From: Rhodopseudomonas faecalis
GTDB taxonomy: Bacteria > Pseudomonadota > Alphaproteobacteria > Rhizobiales > Xanthobacteraceae
Length of the DNA: 64,000 nt
NCBI RefSeq assembly: GCF_003217325.1
Contig: NZ_QJTI01000002.1
Location: 1 to 64,000 of the forward strand
Reading direction: 5' to 3'
Position numbers and translations under genes: made by a program. Shown one piece after another: positions 18,786 through 27,025 of this stretch. The notes under the pieces were generated by a model. It was given only the letters and a program-made list of their open reading frames with translations. It made no database searches and was not told the DNA's origin. Position 1 is the stretch's first letter. Each line of letters starts with the position of its first letter.

Positions 18786-19565
18786 CTAGCGCTGCGTCAG
18801 GAAGCCGATCACCACATCGACGAAAGCATGCGGCTGTTCGATGTTGGAAATATGCGCGGCATCGAGCAGTGTCATCGACGCGCCGGGGATGCGGCTGCGC
18901 ATGAATTCGGCGGAGGCAACCGGCGTCGAATTGTCGTGGCGCCCCGCGATCACCAGCGTGCGCTTGTCGATCTTGGGCAAAAGCTCGCGATGATCAAGCG
19001 TGCTCAGCGCCTCGCAGCAGCCGATATAGCCCTCGACCGGGGTGGCGAGCAGCATCGCCTTGAGATTGGCGGTGGCCTGCGGCTCGCGCTCGCGAAAATC
19101 CTCGGTCAGCCAGTTGTTGATCACGGTGTCGGCGATCGCCGCGATGCCGCCGTCACGCACCAGCGGGATGCGGTTCTTCATCGGGGCCGGATCGGGATAG
19201 TAACAAGTGGTGTTGGCGAGGATCAGCCGGTCGATGCGCTCCGGGGCATTGGCAGCCAGCCATTGCCCGACCATGCCGCCCATCGACAGCCCGCACCAAT
19301 GCACCTTGTCGATATTGAGATCGTCGAGAATGGCGAGGGCATCGCGCCCGAACCGTTCAAACGAGTAAGGGCCGGTGACCTGCGACTTGCCGTGGCCGCG
19401 GCGATCGTAACGCACCACGCGGAACAGCTGCGTCAGCGCCTTCATCTGCGGTTGCCACATCTCGAGCCGGCAGCCGAGCGAGTTCGACAGCATCAGCGTC
19501 GGGGCGCCATCACGGCCCTCGACCGAAACGTTGAGAAGGCAACCGTCGGCATCGATCAGGGGCAT
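18786..19565 (-). CDS. pcaD: 3-oxoadipate enol-lactonase-like alpha/beta hydrolase
   Basis: A 259-residue alpha/beta hydrolase matching PcaD, which opens 3-oxoadipate enol-lactone in the protocatechuate branch of the beta-ketoadipate pathway. Nucleophile Ser in WCGLSMGGMVGQWL, acid Asp in GRHDNSTP and His in DAAHISNIEQP; the N-terminal LSNSLGCRLEMW is typical of PcaD. Start at MPLIDADG, preceded by GGAG; 89 upstream in-frame codons are discarded. No other pca genes are nearby, so it may be a paralogue with a related lactonase role. The gene stops right at the 11-bp tandem array. Confidence 0.8.
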   Translation of the reverse strand: MPLIDADGCLLNVSVEGRDGAPTLMLSNSLGCRLEMWQPQMKALTQLFRVVRYDRRGHGKSQVTGPYSFERFGRDALAILDDLNIDKVHWCGLSMGGMVGQWLAANAPERIDRLILANTTCYYPDPAPMKNRIPLVRDGGIAAIADTVINNWLTEDFREREPQATANLKAMLLATPVEGYIGCCEALSTLDHRELLPKIDKRTLVIAGRHDNSTPVASAEFMRSRIPGASMTLLDAAHISNIEQPHAFVDVVIGFLTQR

Positions 19566-19831
19566 TGGGGCTCTCCAGGTCGCAGGCGCTGGCTGACGGA
19601 GCGGTCCGATCGCCCGCGGCGCAGCCGGTGGAGCATAGCCGCCGCGCTGCTGCGGACAACGGGCGCTATCAAAGCTGCGGCCAGCGGCGCGGCGATCCCC
19701 GGCCATCGGTCGTGCTTGTTTGCCGCGATGCGGCATTGACGTGATTCTGCCAAGCTTTTTCTTTTCCGGAAGGCATGCTTTACTTGGGTAACAGTCGCCG
19801 AAAAAAGGCGGCGATCCCAGGGAGGATTGCA

Positions 19832-20287
19832 ATGACGATGACGATGAGCGGCGAGGTGCGGCTTATCGGATCGCCGGAGCTGGTCTGGACCAAGCTCAAC
19901 GATCCAGAGGTGCTGAAAGCCTGCATTCCCGGCTGTGAGGAACTGGAGCGGACTGAGGACGACAGCGGCTTTCGCGCGGTCGCCAAGCTCAAGGTCGGCC
20001 CGGTGTCGGCGCGCTTCAAAGGCAAAGTCATCCTGTCCGATCTCGACCCGCCCAAAGCCTACAAGATCACCGGGGAAGGCGAGGGTGGCGTTGCCGGTTT
20101 CGCCAAAGGCGGCGCCACGGTCGGACTATCCGATCACGAGGGCGGCACGCTACTGTCCTACAATGTCGAAGCCCATATCGGCGGCAAGCTGGCGCAGCTC
20201 GGCCAGCGTCTCATCAATGGTTCGGCGAAGAAACTCGCCGATGAGTTCTTCGCTAATTTCAGCAAGGCGGTGCAGCCGCAAACCTGA
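19832..20287 (+). CDS. coxG: CoxG-like SRPBCC protein
   Basis: A 151-residue protein of the CoxG (carbon monoxide dehydrogenase subunit G) family, with an SRPBCC/START-like fold. Recognised by GEVRLIGSPELVWTKLNDPEVLKACIPGCEEL, the GPVSARFKGKV strand and the C-terminal GQRLINGSAKKLADEFF. CoxG is thought to help anchor CO dehydrogenase to the membrane; homologues also accompany other xanthine-oxidase-family enzymes. The ATG follows GGAGG by 6 bp, fixing the start. It heads the cox-like cluster, 168 bp before coxS. Confidence 0.88.
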   Translation: MTMTMSGEVRLIGSPELVWTKLNDPEVLKACIPGCEELERTEDDSGFRAVAKLKVGPVSARFKGKVILSDLDPPKAYKITGEGEGGVAGFAKGGATVGLSDHEGGTLLSYNVEAHIGGKLAQLGQRLINGSAKKLADEFFANFSKAVQPQT

Positions 20288-20455: not shown

Positions 20456-20941
20456 ATGGCCAAAATTTCCCTCACCGTGAATGGTCGGGCGGTCACCGCC
20501 AATGTCGATCCGCGCACGCTGCTGGTGCAGTTTCTGCGCGAGCAGTTGCGGCTGACCGGCAGCCATGTCGGCTGCGACACCTCGCAATGCGGCGCCTGCG
20601 TGGTGCATCTCGACGGCAAGGCAGTGAAGTCCTGCACCACGCTGGCGGTGATGGCCGATGGTCACGAGGTCGTCACCATCGAAGGGCTGGCGCCGGATGG
20701 CGCGGCGCTGCATCCGATGCAGCAGGCGTTTTACGAACATCACGGCCTGCAATGCGGTTACTGCACGCCGGGCATGATCATGACCGCGGTCGATCTGGTG
20801 CAGCGCAAGGGCCACGAACTGTCGGAGCAAACGATCCGCGATGAGCTGGAAGGCAATCTGTGCCGCTGCACCGGCTATCAGAACATCGTGATGGCGATTG
20901 CCGCCGGCGCCAAGGCGATGGCGCCGCGCGGTGCTGCGTAG
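20456..20941 (+). CDS. coxS: Small [2Fe-2S] subunit of a CO-dehydrogenase/xanthine-oxidase-family enzyme
   Basis: A 161-residue iron-sulfur subunit with both clusters complete. A plant-type ferredoxin domain carries Cys40, 45, 48 and 60 ([12 protein letters not shown]...SC) and an all-helical domain carries Cys100, 103, 136 and 138 (CGYCTPGM...CRCTG). It passes electrons from the molybdenum site in the large subunit to FAD in the medium subunit. Form II CODH operons run S-L-M; here the large-subunit gene that should follow is missing and coxM starts 42 bp later. Confidence 0.93.
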
Positions 20942-20983
20942 CAAGGCGCCAACAACTCGATCCGGCCGAGCGAAAGGAGCCGC

Positions 20984-21832
20984 ATGTACCCGTTCAAATA
21001 TCATCGTCCGGCGACCGTGCGGCAGGCGGCGAACTTGCTCGCCAAGCATGAGGAAGCGCGGCCGATCGCCGGCGGCCATACGTTGCTGCCGGTGATGAAG
21101 CAGCGTCTGGCCGCACCGCCGCATCTGGTCGATCTGTCGCATATCGAAGGGCTCGGCGAGATCGCAATGCAGGGCCGCGCGCTGACGATCGGCGCCGCTG
21201 CCACGCATGCCGAAGTGGCCGCGTCGGACACGGTGCAGGCGGCGATCCCCGCGCTGGCGGAACTGGCGGCCGAGATCGGCGATCCCGCGGTGCGCCACAG
21301 GGGCACGATCGGCGGCTCGCTCGCTAATAACGACCCGGCCGCGGACTACGCGGCCGCGGCGCTGGCGCTCGGCGCCACCATCGTCACCAGCAAGCGCCGC
21401 CTGAAAGCGGATCAGTTCTTCCAGGGGCTGTTCACCACCGCGCTCGATCCGGACGAGATCATCACCAAGATCATGCTGCCGGTGCCGAAGAAGGCCGCCT
21501 ATTGCAAGTTCCGCAATCCAGCGTCGCGCTATGCGCTGGTTGGGGTGTTCGTCGCCAAGCGGCCGTCTGACGTGCGCGTTGCGGTCACCGGCGCTGGCGC
21601 CGACGGCGTATTCCGGCTGAGCGCGGCCGAGGCGGCGTTGCAGAAGCGCTTTCATCCAAAAATGCTGGGCGGCCTGCATGTGGCGGCGGATGGCCTGACC
21701 AGCGATCTACACGGCAGCGCGACCTATCGCGCGCATCTGATCGCGGTGCTGACGCGGCGCGCGGTCGAGGCGGCGCAGGCGCGGCCTGACAAAGTAGCTG
21801 CGCAGCCCGCGGCGCTGGAGCCGGCGTCATGA
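20984..21832 (+). CDS. coxM: Medium FAD subunit of a CO-dehydrogenase/xanthine-oxidase-family enzyme
   Basis: A 282-residue FAD subunit. The two pyrophosphate-binding motifs are intact, AGGHTLLP (29-36) and TIGGSLANNDPAAD (108-121), as is the CO_deh_flav C-terminal region. A clear AAAGGAG lies 7 bp before the ATG. Its stop overlaps the coxD start by 4 bp. With coxS it could only form the electron-transfer part of an enzyme: no 750-800-residue molybdenum subunit is encoded anywhere in the window. Confidence 0.93.
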   Translation: MYPFKYHRPATVRQAANLLAKHEEARPIAGGHTLLPVMKQRLAAPPHLVDLSHIEGLGEIAMQGRALTIGAAATHAEVAASDTVQAAIPALAELAAEIGDPAVRHRGTIGGSLANNDPAADYAAAALALGATIVTSKRRLKADQFFQGLFTTALDPDEIITKIMLPVPKKAAYCKFRNPASRYALVGVFVAKRPSDVRVAVTGAGADGVFRLSAAEAALQKRFHPKMLGGLHVAADGLTSDLHGSATYRAHLIAVLTRRAVEAAQARPDKVAAQPAALEPAS

Positions 21833-22746
21833 CCAGCGCTGCCCCGCCTGCCTTGCTGCCGGCTTCGGTCGATGCCACCTTGGCGCTGCTGACGGCCAAT
21901 GGCTATCTTGCCGAACGCGCGCTCGCCACCGTGACGTTTCTGGCGCTGCGCATGGGACGGCCGCTGTTTCTGGAAGGCGAGGCCGGGGTCGGCAAGACCG
22001 AGATCGCCAAGGTGCTGGCCGCCGCGCTCGGCCGCCGCTTGATCCGGCTGCAATGCTATGAAGGGCTCGACATCGCGTCTGCGGTCTATGAGTGGAACAC
22101 CGCGGCGCAGATGATCGCGATCCGGCTTGCGGAAGCAGCGGGCGACACCGATCGCGACCGGCTCGCCGCCGATATTTTTGCCGAGCGCTATCTGATCAAG
22201 CGGCCATTGCTGCAAGCGCTGGAGCCGGAGGTCAGCGGCGCGCCGGTGCTGCTGATCGATGAGCTCGACCGCGCCGACGAGGCCTTTGAGGCCTATCTGC
22301 TCGAAGTGCTGTCCGATTTTCAGGTGACGATACCGGAGTTCGGCACCATCGCGGCGCCGCACCCGCCGATCGTGATCGTCACTTCCAATCGCACCCGCGA
22401 GATTCATGACGCGCTCAAGCGGCGCTGCCTGTATCACTGGGTCGATTATCCGAGCGCCGAGCGCGAATTGGCGATCGTCAAATCGAAGGTGCCGGGCATT
22501 TCCGCGGCGCTGTCGGCGCAGGTGGTGGCGTTCGTGCAGGCGCTGCGCGCGCAGGATTTTTACAAATCGCCCGGCGTTGCCGAAACGCTCGATTGGGCGA
22601 CCGCGCTCACCGAACTCGACGCCCGCAGCCTGACGCCGCAACTGGTCGGCGATACGCTCGGCGCGCTGTTGAAATATCAGGACGACATCGCCCGCATGCA
22701 GGGCGATACCATGCAGAAGCTGGTGAAGGAGGCGACGGCGCAATAG
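21829..22746 (+). CDS. coxD: CoxD-like MoxR-family AAA+ ATPase
   Basis: A 305-residue AAA+ ATPase with Walker A GEAGVGKT (50-57), Walker B VLLIDELDRAD and the sensor/arginine region VTSNRTREIHDALKRRC. CoxD of Oligotropha is a chaperone-like ATPase needed to mature the [CuSMoO2] active site of CO dehydrogenase, working with the von Willebrand protein CoxE. Overlap with coxM is ATGA. Downstream, 411 bp of repeats separate it from coxE. Confidence 0.9.
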   Translation: MTSAAPPALLPASVDATLALLTANGYLAERALATVTFLALRMGRPLFLEGEAGVGKTEIAKVLAAALGRRLIRLQCYEGLDIASAVYEWNTAAQMIAIRLAEAAGDTDRDRLAADIFAERYLIKRPLLQALEPEVSGAPVLLIDELDRADEAFEAYLLEVLSDFQVTIPEFGTIAAPHPPIVIVTSNRTREIHDALKRRCLYHWVDYPSAERELAIVKSKVPGISAALSAQVVAFVQALRAQDFYKSPGVAETLDWATALTELDARSLTPQLVGDTLGALLKYQDDIARMQGDTMQKLVKEATAQ

Positions 22747-22814: not shown

Positions 22815-22960
22815 CCCTCTCCCCGCTTGCGGGGAGAGGGCTGGGGTGAGGGGGCGTTTCGATTTGTCGCAGCCGCTCGCCTGTGCGGAAGCGCCCCCTC
22901 ACCCGATCCGACTTCGCTGCGCTCCGCCGGATCGACCTCTCCCCGCAAGCGGGGAGAGGT
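22815..22960. repeat. Family B repeat copy inside the cox cluster
   Basis: CCCTCTCCCCGCTTGCGGGG at the left and CCTCTCCCCGCAAGCGGGG at the right, each a small hairpin of its own, with GGGTGAGGGGGCG and CGCCCCCTCACCC as inner arms. It lies between coxD and coxE, which are otherwise expected to be cotranscribed. Confidence 0.85.
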
Positions 22961-23157: not shown

Positions 23158-24390
23158 GTGGACCGTATCAAAATGCAGCGTATCCCGACCGGAATGATCG
23201 ACCACCTCAATCCGCCGACCGGCATGATGGCCGACAATGTGGTCGGCTTCGCGCGCGCGTTGCGGGCGGCGGGATTGCCGGTCGGGCCCGGTGCGGTGAT
23301 CGACGCGCTGCAGGCGCTGCAACTGATCGATGTCGGCTGCCGTGCCGATGTCTATGCGACGCTGCAATCAATCTTCGTCAAGCGCCACGAACATGTGCTG
23401 ATTTTCGCGCAGGCCTTTGAACTGTTCTTCCGCGCCGCCGAGGAATGGCAGCACATGCTGGATTCGATCCCGCTGCCCGATCACGCCAAGAAGAAGCCGC
23501 CGCCAGCGTCGCGCCGCGTGCAGGAGGCGTTGGCGCAGGCCAGCCAAGCGATCGACAAGGCGGAGGAGCAGCAGGAACTGCGGCTGTCGGTGTCTGATCA
23601 TGAAGTGCTGCAGAAGAAGGATTTTGCGCAGATGAGCGCGGCCGAGATCGCCGAGGTGACGCGCGCGATCGCCAAGATGCGGTTGCCGCAGGCCGAGCTG
23701 CGCACGCGCCGCCAGGCGCCCGACCGGCACGGCCGGCGGCTCGATCTGCGCCGCACGCTACGCGCGTCGCTGCGCGCCGGCGGCGAGATCGTCGATATCC
23801 GCAAGCTCGGCCCGCTCGACAAGCCATCGCCGATCGTGGCGCTGCTCGATATTTCCGGCTCGATGAGCGAATACACGCGGCTGTTCCTGCATTTCCTGCA
23901 CGCCATCACCGATGATCGCAAACGGGTCTCGACCTTTCTGTTCGGCACAAGGCTGACCAATGTCACCCGCGCGCTGCGCGCCCGCGATCCGGACGACGCG
24001 CTGCAAAGCTGCACCGCCGCGGTCGAGGACTGGGCCGGCGGCACGCGCATCTCGGCCTCGCTGCACGCCTTCAACAAGTTGTGGAGCCGGCGCGTGCTCG
24101 GCCAGGGCGCGATCGTGCTGCTGATTTCCGACGGGCTGGAACGCGACGCCGACGGCCAACTGGCATTCGAGATCGACCGGCTACATCGCTCGTGCCGGCG
24201 GCTGATCTGGCTCAATCCGCTGCTGCGCTATGCCGGCTTTGAAGCCAAGGCGCAGGGCATCAAAATGATGCTGCCGCACGTTGACGAATTTCGCCCAGTG
24301 CATAACCTCACCTCGATGCACGCGCTGGTCGAGGCGCTGTCCGCGCCGCCGCCGCCGCATCACCGCACGCTGATCCGATCGGCGGCTTAA
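23158..24390 (+). CDS. coxE: CoxE-like von Willebrand factor A domain protein
   Basis: About 410 residues. A helical N-terminal half is followed by a VWA domain with the MIDAS motif in LLDISGSMSEYTR (about 231-243), the RRTLRAS region before it and LLISDGLERDAD after it. CoxE works with the CoxD ATPase in maturing the molybdenum-copper site of CO dehydrogenase. The first possible start is a GTG at 23158; ATG codons follow at 23173 and 23194, and none has a convincing ribosome-binding site at the right distance. Start uncertain by up to about 22 residues. Confidence 0.88.
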   Translation: MDRIKMQRIPTGMIDHLNPPTGMMADNVVGFARALRAAGLPVGPGAVIDALQALQLIDVGCRADVYATLQSIFVKRHEHVLIFAQAFELFFRAAEEWQHMLDSIPLPDHAKKKPPPASRRVQEALAQASQAIDKAEEQQELRLSVSDHEVLQKKDFAQMSAAEIAEVTRAIAKMRLPQAELRTRRQAPDRHGRRLDLRRTLRASLRAGGEIVDIRKLGPLDKPSPIVALLDISGSMSEYTRLFLHFLHAITDDRKRVSTFLFGTRLTNVTRALRARDPDDALQSCTAAVEDWAGGTRISASLHAFNKLWSRRVLGQGAIVLLISDGLERDADGQLAFEIDRLHRSCRRLIWLNPLLRYAGFEAKAQGIKMMLPHVDEFRPVHNLTSMHALVEALSAPPPPHHRTLIRSAA

Positions 24391-24402
24391 GGGACGACGC
24401 CC

Positions 24403-24741
24403 ATGCCAAGCACGCTCGATCGCGACGACGACATTCTGCAGGCCGCGCAGCAATGGCACCAGGCCGGGCGCGGCGTGGCGCTTGCCACCGTGGTCGAAAC
24501 CTGGGGCTCGGCGCCGCGGCCGGCCGGCTCCAGTTTGGTGATCAATGATGAGGGTGTGTTTCTCGGCTCGGTGTCGGGCGGCTGTGTCGAAGGCGCGGTG
24601 GTCACCGAAGCGCTGGAGGTGATCAGCAGCGGCACGCCAAAACTCTTGGAATTCGGCGTTGCCGACGAAACCGCCTGGCAGGTCGGGCTGTCCTGCGGCG
24701 GCACCATTCGCGTATTCGTGGAAAAGGTCGGCGCGCCGTGA
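24403..24741 (+). CDS. XdhC/CoxI family protein, N-terminal domain as a separate gene
   Basis: A 112-residue protein covering only the XdhC_CoxI N-terminal domain: VALATVVETWGSAPRPAGSSLV, then the conserved VSGGCVEGAV and FGVADETAWQVGLSCGGTIRVFVE. XdhC proteins bind molybdenum cofactor and promote its sulfuration before insertion into xanthine-oxidase-family enzymes. The second half is encoded by the next gene, which starts at an overlapping GTGA. In many genomes both domains form one protein of 250-350 residues; split forms are also known. Confidence 0.85.
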   Translation: MPSTLDRDDDILQAAQQWHQAGRGVALATVVETWGSAPRPAGSSLVINDEGVFLGSVSGGCVEGAVVTEALEVISSGTPKLLEFGVADETAWQVGLSCGGTIRVFVEKVGAP

Positions 24742-25430
24742 AGCTGGAAATTCTGCAGGCGCTCAATGCCGAGCGCGCCGCGCGCCGTCCGGCGGTGGTG
24801 GTCACCGAGCTTGCCAGCGGCGCGCAGCGGCTGCTCACGGCCGATCAGATCGACGGCGATCCGCTCGCCGCCGAAGTGCACAAGCTGCTGCGGATGGGCA
24901 AGAGCGCCACCATCGACGCCGAGGGCCGCAAATGGTTCATCCATGTGCACGCGCCGACGGCAAAGATGGTGATCATCGGCGCGGTTCATATCAGCCAGGT
25001 GCTGGCGCCGCTGGCGCGCACGCTCGGCTATGACGTCACCATTGTCGATCCGCGCACCGCGTTCGCGAGTGCTGAGCGCTTTCCCGAGGTGCCGCTGATC
25101 GCGGACTGGCCCGATGTTGCGCTGCCGCCGTTGCAGGTCGATCGCTACACCGCGTTTGTGGCGCTGACTCATGATCCGAAGATCGATGATGGCGCGCTGC
25201 TGCATGCGCTGGCGCAAAACTGTTTCTATATCGGCGCGCTCGGTTCGAAGAAGACCCACGCCAAGCGGCTCGATCGCCTGAGCGCGCAGGGCGCCAGCGC
25301 CGCCGATCTTGCCAAAATTCACGCGCCGATTGGGCTGGCGATCGGCGCGGTGTCGCCAGCGGAAATCGCGGTGTCGATCATGGCCGAGATCACCGCGCAA
25401 TTGCGGCTGCCGCAGCCGCTGCCATCATGA
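24738..25430 (+). CDS. XdhC family protein, Rossmann domain
   Basis: A 230-residue protein with the XdhC C-terminal Rossmann domain: MVIIGAVHISQVLAPLARTLG (about 78-98), TIVDPRTAFAS, VALTHDPKIDDGALLHAL, YIGALGSKKTHAKR and the terminal IGLAIGAVSPAEIAVSIMAEI. The first 75 residues are an extra region not typical of the Rossmann domain. Start is GTG, overlapping the previous stop by 4 bp, and the end overlaps the next gene by 4 bp, so translation is coupled across three genes. Role in Moco sulfuration or delivery is inferred from family and context. Confidence 0.85.
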   Translation: MKLEILQALNAERAARRPAVVVTELASGAQRLLTADQIDGDPLAAEVHKLLRMGKSATIDAEGRKWFIHVHAPTAKMVIIGAVHISQVLAPLARTLGYDVTIVDPRTAFASAERFPEVPLIADWPDVALPPLQVDRYTAFVALTHDPKIDDGALLHALAQNCFYIGALGSKKTHAKRLDRLSAQGASAADLAKIHAPIGLAIGAVSPAEIAVSIMAEITAQLRLPQPLPS

Positions 25431-27025
25431 AATTCGCGGAGCTGGCGCCCGCTGATGCGCTTGGCGGCATCGCCGTGCACACGCTGCGCCGCGGCGCGCT
25501 GGTGCTGAAGAAAGGCACGGTGATCGGCGCCGCCGAAGTCGCGGCGTTGCAGGCGGCCGGCGTCGAACGCCTCGCCGCGGTGCATCTCGAAGCGAGCGAT
25601 GTGTCGGAAGATGTGGCCGCAGGCCGGATCGCGCAGGCGGTCGCGGGCGAGGGCGTGCACGTCGAGGCCGCAATGACCGGCCGTGCCAATCTGTTCGCGG
25701 CGCAAGCTGGCGTGCTGGTGGTGGCGCGCGAGGTGGTGGACCGCGTCAATGGCATCAATGAAGCGATCACACTGGCGACGCTGCCGGCTTTCAAGCCGGT
25801 GGTCGAAGGCGAAATGATCGCTACCGTGAAACTCATTCCGTTCGGCGTCGCCGCGCCGCTCTGCGACGCGGCGGTGGCGGCGGGCCGCGGCGCGCTACGC
25901 ATCGCACCCTTCGTCCGCCGGCGGATCGGCGTGGTCTCGACGCTGCTGCCGGGGCTTGCCACCAAGGTGATCGACAAGACGCTGCGCGTCACCGCCGAGC
26001 GGCTGGCACCAGCCGGCGCCAGCATCATCGCCGAGCGCCGCGTCGCCCATCAGCAAAGCGCGCTCGCTGGGGCGATCGATGAACTGCTCACGCTCGGCGC
26101 GGAGCTGGTGATCGTGTTCGGCGCATCCGCGATCGCCGATCGCCGTGACGTGATCCCGGCGGCGATCAAGGCTGTCGGCGGCGAGATCGCGCATTTCGGC
26201 ATGCCGGTCGATCCCGGCAATCTGCTGCTGATTGGCGCGGTGCGCGGCGTGCCGATCATCGGTGCGCCGGGCTGTGCGCGTTCCCCGGTCGAGAACGGTT
26301 TTGACTGGGTGCTGATGCGGCTCTTGGCCGGGCTGCCGGTGACGCGCGCCGAGATCACCGGCATGGGCGTTGGGGGGCTGTTGATGGAAATCGTCACCCG
26401 GCCGCAGCCGCGGCTGCCGGCCGCTGCAGAAAGCCAGCGCGTCGCCGCGATCGTGCTTGCCGCTGGCCGCTCGACGCGCATGGGCGGGCCGAACAAATTG
26501 CTTGCCACTCTGAATGGCCGGCCATTGGTGCGGATCGTGGCCGAGCAGGCGCTGGCCTCGCAGGCCTGCGAGGTGATCGTGATCACCGGCCATCAGAGCG
26601 CTGAGGTCGCGGCCGCGCTGTCCGGTCTCAAGGTGACGCTGGTGCATAATCCGGAGTTCGCGCAAGGGATCGCGTCGTCGCTGAAGGCCGGTATCACCGC
26701 GGTGCCGAGCGATGCCGCCGGCGCTGTGGTGTGCCTGGGCGATATGCCGCTGGTTGGCCCCAGCCTGATCGACCGGCTGATCGCCGCCTTTGCGCCTGAT
26801 CGCGGCGCGCTGATCGTGGTGCCGGTCAGCGGCGGCAGGCGTGGCAATCCGGTGCTGTGGTCGCGGCGGTTCTTTGCTGAACTGTTGACGCTGGACGGTG
26901 ATGTCGGTGCCCGCCATTTGATCGGCAAGCACAGCGAGGCGGTGGCGGAAGTCGCGGTCGAAGGCGAGGGCGCGTTTCTCGATATCGACACGCCGCAGGC
27001 GCTCGACGACATGCAGCGGGCGTGA
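25427..27025 (+). CDS. Molybdopterin-binding domain fused to a MobA-like nucleotidyltransferase
   Basis: A 532-residue fusion. The N-terminal 340 residues resemble molybdopterin-binding (MoeA/MogA-type) proteins, with the MPT-binding-like GAELVIVFGASAIADRRDVIP and GMPVDPGNLLLIGAVRGVPIIGAPGC. The C-terminal 190 residues are an NTP_transf_3 domain with AIVLAAGRSTRMGGPNKLLA, VVCLGDMPLVG and GNPVLWSR, as in MocA/MobA cytidylyl- and guanylyltransferases. Xanthine-oxidase-family enzymes often use the cytosine dinucleotide cofactor made by MocA, so this protein probably finishes the cofactor for the cox-like enzyme. It is the last gene of the coupled run. Confidence 0.85.
   Translation: MKFAELAPADALGGIAVHTLRRGALVLKKGTVIGAAEVAALQAAGVERLAAVHLEASDVSEDVAAGRIAQAVAGEGVHVEAAMTGRANLFAAQAGVLVVAREVVDRVNGINEAITLATLPAFKPVVEGEMIATVKLIPFGVAAPLCDAAVAAGRGALRIAPFVRRRIGVVSTLLPGLATKVIDKTLRVTAERLAPAGASIIAERRVAHQQSALAGAIDELLTLGAELVIVFGASAIADRRDVIPAAIKAVGGEIAHFGMPVDPGNLLLIGAVRGVPIIGAPGCARSPVENGFDWVLMRLLAGLPVTRAEITGMGVGGLLMEIVTRPQPRLPAAAESQRVAAIVLAAGRSTRMGGPNKLLATLNGRPLVRIVAEQALASQACEVIVITGHQSAEVAAALSGLKVTLVHNPEFAQGIASSLKAGITAVPSDAAGAVVCLGDMPLVGPSLIDRLIAAFAPDRGALIVVPVSGGRRGNPVLWSRRFFAELLTLDGDVGARHLIGKHSEAVAEVAVEGEGAFLDIDTPQALDDMQRA

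Follow-up and report, generated by a model that had tools for sequence, protein, structure and literature searches.

Three glyceraldehyde oxidoreductases have been purified from Sulfolobus tokodaii (Wakagi et al. 2016; PMC4726530). Two of them, GAOR2 and GAOR3, have one medium/small (M/S) subunit pair in common, with which different, separately encoded large (L) subunits of the xanthine oxidase family assemble (PDB 4ZOH). Related enzymes are known from cox-type clusters. Form II clusters of the Hyphomicrobiales, which code for a CoxL-like L with an AYRGAGR loop, have the order G-S-L-M-D-E-xdhC-xdhC-mocA in many loci and hold homologues of all genes of the cluster described below. The aerobic form I Mo/Cu CO dehydrogenase (PDB 1N5W) has homologous S, M and L subunits and CoxG/D/E-type genes.

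The locus lies in a 64-kb window (the whole stretch of DNA that was analysed), which is the start of contig C2 of the Rhodopseudomonas faecalis genome (G000), a 4.07 Mb draft in 62 contigs. Pfam searches revealed an intact plus-strand cluster, coxG-S-M-D-E-xdhC(split)-mocA, extending up to position 27025. The first gene, coxG (19832..20287; PF06240, 1.6e-33), lies in an open reading frame that runs from 19775, with the start at 19832 inferred by eye; we take its product to be a possible membrane or quinone docking factor. The [2Fe-2S] subunit is encoded by coxS (20456..20941; PF01799, 7.5e-33; Fer2/Fer2_2), and the FAD subunit by coxM (20984..21832; PF00941, 4.9e-52; FAD_binding_5 and CO_deh_flav_C). 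The two are electron-transfer subunits of the xanthine oxidase family: an S with two [2Fe-2S] domains and eight conserved cysteines, invariant in an alignment of 16 sequences from clusters with and without L, and an FAD-binding M. The AAA+ ATPase gene coxD (21829..22746; PF07728) overlaps coxM by 4 bp. CoxD matches the MadB ATPase model NF047784 at 1.3e-77, below the cut-off of that model, and by analogy with known CoxD we assume for it a role in Moco-site maturation; the VWA protein CoxE (VWA_CoxE; 23158..24390; PF05762, 3.8e-78) is its presumed partner. The gene for the Moco insertion factor XdhC is split, as it is in clusters of relatives, into an N-terminal half (24403..24741; XdhC_CoxI, PF02625) and a C-terminal half with a Rossmann domain (24738..25430; PF13478). 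The last gene (25427..27025; PF12804, MobA-like) codes for a long N-terminal extension followed by a MocA-type Moco cytidylyltransferase part, with a match to TIGR03310 of 1.8e-48, below its cut-off.

Several features of the locus were recorded alongside. Two copies of a 24-nt palindrome, CCTCTCCCCGCnnGCGGGGAGAGG, are located 120 bp apart (22816-22839 and 22936-22959) in the 411-bp gap between coxD and coxE; no further match was present in the window at up to two mismatches, and none was found in 100 shuffles. In G031, G034, G023 and G032, the coxE match lies within ca. 30 bp of the coxD match. Around 21785-21832, the CoxM matches differ in extent, those of the window and of G014 covering 282 residues and those of other members of the genus ending at residues 267-279. 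Divergent from the cluster, on the minus strand, is a gene for an alpha/beta hydrolase of the 3-oxoadipate enol-lactonase (PcaD) type (18786..19832; TIGR02427 above cut-off), whose true start may fall further inside. Such a divergent neighbour was matched at 33 of 35 named loci without L and at 54 of the best 80 loci, and may hint at the substrate. S, M and L all failed to reach the cut-off of any NCBIfam model, and we therefore propose no substrate.

As the first-pass annotation had stated, the cox cluster is intact and the window codes for no L: coxS and coxM are separated by 42 bp (20942..20983), the place that form II coxL occupies in related clusters. A MoCoBD_1 search of the genome revealed no L anywhere on C2, and found one CoxL-like protein on contig C36 and another on C20. 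Both carry the AYRGAGR loop (read VDAYRGAGR), one of the two motifs by which the annotation had suggested searching for them; the other, VAYRCSFR, taken from the same source as the form I motif, is absent from both. Both score below the cut-offs of the NCBIfam CO dehydrogenase large-subunit models. In total, the genome contains two S (Fer2_2), two M (CoxM) and two L (MoCoBD_1). On C36 there is a complete S-L-M trio (S, 161 aa; L, 784 aa; M, 266 aa), whose S (S2) and M (M2) are 66% and 52% identical, respectively, to those of the window (S1 and M1). The C20 L is a stand-alone protein of 788 aa (L004:6178-8541, minus strand), ca. 43% identical to the C36 L, and no Fer2_2 or CoxM match was found on its contig. 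Once neighbours are paired, only coxS1 and the C20 L remain.

The stand-alone L is followed by a cytochrome c' gene and then a cytochrome c gene (L004:4486-6048, minus strand), which could provide another electron route. In relatives, 14 of 20 lone-L loci matched one or both of these genes and the other six, G034 among them, matched neither; the cytochromes were considered as possible dedicated redox partners of the C20 L and are not favoured. S or M was matched in none of these 20 loci (8-13 kb each).

We think it likely that the cluster supplies electron transfer and maturation, as a shared module, to CoxL-like subunits that stand alone in the genome and act in trans, and that the C20 L is its partner in R. 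faecalis. The module would comprise CoxS and CoxM (2Fe-2S, FAD), CoxG, the putative Moco-site maturases CoxD/CoxE and XdhC, and the MocA-type transferase. A form II coxL would once have stood between coxS and coxM, as it still does in relatives, and would have been cleanly lost; the cluster would have persisted because CoxL-like subunits encoded alone elsewhere used it as well or came to do so. The known targets of CoxD, CoxE, XdhC and MocA are at the Mo site of L. We infer maturation in trans, physical pairing and a common electron path: a stand-alone L would acquire Moco with the help of XdhC, MocA, CoxD and CoxE, and would dock on the S-M pair, the latter being the fixed electron exit and L the exchangeable part. 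Electrons from the substrate would then pass from Mo through the two 2Fe-2S centres to FAD and on to an acceptor, possibly via CoxG. The computed evidence consists of gene orders, gene inventories, trees of L and M, purifying selection and intact catalytic residues.

In a CoxM search of 61 genomes, S was found directly before M at the best CoxM locus in all 16 genomes of the genus, R. faecalis included; G002, G003, G004, G010 and G012 among them are single contigs. The same junction is present in the complete sequence of Bradyrhizobium sp. BTAi1 (G061). A misassembly joining coxS to coxM, which the first-pass annotation had named as the finding that could overturn its observation, might be expected of a draft in 62 contigs; with the junction conserved in 16/16 genomes of the genus, five of them single-contig, and in BTAi1, we reject this explanation and give it next to no credence. 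Clusters without L ("L-less") also occur in G020, G031, G034, G023, G032, G026 and G029; in G036, coxD and coxE were unmatched within 9.6 kb around an S-M pair. The gene-order comparison that the annotation had recommended also revealed S-L-M in many outgroups. In G025, G017, G019, G049, G055, G027 and G028, L is located between S and M in an order that is otherwise much alike, and these in-cluster Ls are 66-69% identical to the C36 L.

Out of the best 80 named loci found with the CoxM profile in a collection of species genomes, 37 are S-M, 42 are S-L-M and one is cut, in a sample that was ranked by similarity to the window and is thus biased towards it; the nearest named relatives among them come from Rhodopseudomonas, Bradyrhizobium and their relatives. 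When the two states are mapped on a CoxM tree of 107 rows, 103 of them different, seven changes are required, at least three of them forced by starred branches, a count that cannot distinguish gain from loss. L is missing from all 39 rows of the Bradyrhizobium/Rhodopseudomonas M clade, so that the gene set described earlier as unusual is the rule there. Because the gene order round the gap is shared and most outer branches are S-L-M, repeated loss is the simplest account, and L was probably lost from the cluster more than once. The in-cluster L could have been dispensable because the S-M pair still had a use with other Ls. Both xdhC and mocA are kept in 34 of the 35 named L-less clusters, the 35th being cut by a contig end. 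In two MAG loci, L191 and L193, xdhC and mocA accompany an S-M pair of another kind, coxD/E being unmatched; these loci form an M clade of their own.

Comparison of the window with its nearest relative, G014, gave dN/dS values of 0.04 for coxS, 0.10 for coxM and 0.009 for coxD, and a range of 0.009-0.10 over eight cluster genes; the value for the C20 L was 0.10. S1 is no looser than S2, which adjoins an L: its dN to G003 is 0.066 versus 0.098, and it is also the lower of the two to G014, G020 and G031. The ratio of S to D distances was 0.72 within the 39 L-less clusters versus 0.98 within 38 intact ones, and that of M to D distances was 1.30 versus 1.55, ratios that set close pairs against distant ones, the L-less pairs being nearer each other. 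For five L-less rows outside the 39-row clade (two of which are one locus), compared with intact clusters, the values were 0.90-1.02 (S/D) and 1.47-1.64 (M/D), inside the intact range; the rate test excluded L191 and L193, S-M loci that lack D/E. We conclude that S and M are under purifying selection, and that there is no sign of their relaxation after the loss of L. These values agree with the earlier statement that the locus is not in general decay. Decay of what remained of a form II enzyme once coxL was lost would account for the missing L, whose former place is visible in relatives; with low dN/dS in all eight genes, a state common to the entire 39-row clade, no rise in rate and eight cysteines kept, this reading is scarcely credible and was rejected.

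To relate S to L across genomes, we inventoried all Fer2_2 (S) and MoCoBD_1 (L) matches listed for 30 genomes, 29 of them distinct (G070 has the same coordinates as G051 and was counted once). Matches left over after one-to-one pairing within 5 kb were called unpaired, a rule under which a few "unpaired" Ls do have an S nearby, which is closer to another L. Usable L matches were 32 of 36 in G023, 28 of 35 in G026, 21 of 22 in G032, 7 of 9 in G021, 8 of 12 in G033, 4 of 5 in G048 and 11 of 13 in G053, and pairing in these genomes was among the matches listed; three short second fragments of counted proteins (two in G062, one in G066) were left out. The cluster's S and at least one L were unpaired in 16/16 inventoried L-less genomes, and in 13 of these the cluster's S was the only unpaired S. 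Two unpaired S were found in G032, three in G023 and six in G026, which are drafts of 70-370 contigs. A single unpaired L was present in each of G000, G014 and G034, two in G063, three in each of G003, G004, G010, G020, G031, G061 and G064, four in G062 and seven in G029; among the matches listed, there were 13 of 21 in G032, 15 of 32 in G023 and 18 of 28 in G026. MoCoBD_1 matches outnumber Fer2_2 matches in the last three genomes (22 versus 10 in G032, 36 versus 20 in G023, 35 versus 16 in G026).

The three unpaired Ls of G003, G004 and G010 face one unpaired S in each genome. The leftover of one S and one L seen in R. faecalis recurs in G014 (7 contigs) and in G034, which belongs to another genus and is the sharpest case: it has two S and two L, one S-L pair adjoins, and what is left is the L-less cluster and a C20-type L (74% identical). 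The pattern is also seen in genomes assembled as single contigs (G003, G004, G010, G028 and G055) and in the complete sequence of G061, so contig breaks are no explanation for it. Genomes with intact clusters had at least one unpaired L in 13/13 distinct cases (1 to 6, among the matches listed). In eight of the 13 there was no unpaired S, and an unpaired L there must therefore either use an S-M pair that another L also uses, or function with none. One or two unpaired S were found in G021, G033, G048, G051 and G053, with L counts among the matches listed in four of these five.

The relationship of these Ls to cox Ls was analysed in a tree of 98 proteins from 12 genomes, where "orphan" means that no S lies within 5 kb; three proteins shorter than 600 residues (one orphan, two paired) had been dropped first. 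A clade of 48 (SH-aLRT 96) contained 37 of the 38 orphan Ls, all nine Ls of form II cox S-L-M clusters and two of the 51 other S-paired Ls. The sole orphan outside it (G032 C13:135) starts at base 135 of its contig, and a neighbour may be cut off. For the seven L-less genomes in the tree, 29 of 30 orphan Ls belong to the cox clade. A more careful tree of 67 chosen rows, which left out 30 deep or long outgroup rows and G032 C13:135, recovered the same clade with support of 98/94 and carries a warning that long outgroup branches meet; orphans and cox Ls do not form one unbroken clade in it, owing to the same two S-paired Ls. A Glu and a Gln of L, which we read as catalytic-site residues, are kept in 38/38 and 36/38 orphan Ls, respectively. 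The role of the catalytic Glu is also described in PMC4726530. The first-pass annotation had offered clean loss of coxL, a subunit encoded elsewhere, and an S-M pair serving another molybdenum subunit as alternatives. The first two appear to apply together, L having been cleanly lost, probably more than once, and stand-alone Ls of the same clade being encoded elsewhere; the third would join them, with the S-M pair presumably serving these Ls.

A partner other than the C20 L can be proposed. The orphan S-M pair might assemble in trans with the form II CoxL of C36, either as an additional electron-transfer unit or as a copy that raises the dosage. The Ls inside the clusters of intact relatives are 66-72% identical to the C36 L and nearer to it than to the C20 L, S1 and S2 are alike (66% identity), and the C36-type S-L-M trios of Bradyrhizobium (L208, L211, L213) have coxG/D/E, xdhC and mocA unmatched within 20 kb and may borrow the maturases of the cluster; such trios may depend on a remote maturation set. 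Against this, an S and an M are already present in the C36 trio, and on the CoxM tree the M of this trio falls in a clade (SH-aLRT 99) separate from window-type M. Moreover, in five L-less genomes (G034, G029, G032, G023 and G026) the best match to the C36 L is only 43-48% identical, so a C36 L cannot explain why the cluster was retained there. The C36 trio is disfavoured as sole partner, and we regard assembly with its L as unlikely.

S and M, whose genes are conserved together in a row that includes no L, could also function on their own, as a flavin/iron-sulphur reductase for instance. We consider this very improbable. We know of no role for xdhC and mocA without L, and both are kept in 34 of the 35 named L-less clusters; in addition, each of the 16 inventoried L-less genomes has at least one unpaired L, and those of the seven genomes in the tree are, with one exception in 30, of the cox clade.

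The reading as a shared module has points against it as well: the cytochromes beside the lone L, the low identity (ca. 43%) of the C20 L to the C36 L, the better match of the C20 L to solved CO dehydrogenase large chains than to the GAOR2 L, the gene contents of G018, G023 and G026, and the two S-paired Ls in the orphan clade. In G018 there are two C20-type Ls (61-64%), but M of the window type is missing (best 41%). The L-less cluster is present in G023 and G026 without a C20-type L (best 42-46%), and the partner in these genomes must therefore be another L. We lean, by a little, towards a broader form of the shared module, in which one S-M and maturation set serves a whole expandable family of stand-alone Mo subunits in bacteria, like one reductase for many P450s. 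It would explain both the presence of 1 to at least 18 unpaired Ls per L-less genome (16 inventoried) and why S and M could stay in the cluster when L was lost.

Set against the described systems, the cluster differs from form II S-L-M clusters in that L is absent from it and from the Bradyrhizobium/Rhodopseudomonas clade, and from form I CO dehydrogenase in that the form I loop is absent from both Ls of the genome. Among solved structures, CoxS and CoxM are closest to GAOR2 subunits (4zoh chain C, 3.9e-57, and chain B, 4e-45, respectively); the C20 L best matches CO dehydrogenase large chains (8uem, 7.6e-151), with 4zoh chain A at 3.3e-107. The likeness to GAOR2 and GAOR3 extends to gene arrangement: in both systems an M/S gene pair lies apart from L. 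In R. faecalis, M and S are adjacent with no L beside them, and the C20 L is on another contig without an S or M of its own. The Sulfolobus genes are archaeal, with M before S, and the sharing of M/S by two Ls was shown biochemically; the present cluster is bacterial, with S before M, and its pairing with L is predicted. It is further set apart by the cox maturation genes beside S-M, the lost in-cluster L, and unpaired Ls that number from one to over ten in a genome. The literature searched, with most subscription papers outside its scope, contained one archaeal case of M/S sharing and no bacterial one. The principle itself is already published for S. tokodaii. By itself, an S-M cluster that lacks L is taken for an incomplete CO dehydrogenase, and a CoxL-like protein standing alone for an enzyme with parts missing. 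If our proposal is true, both views err in the same way: lone Ls would be complete enzymes in trans and the S-M cluster their common hub, the substrates of form II enzymes would become a question testable by co-purification, and a principle published for one archaeon would have its counterpart in bacteria.
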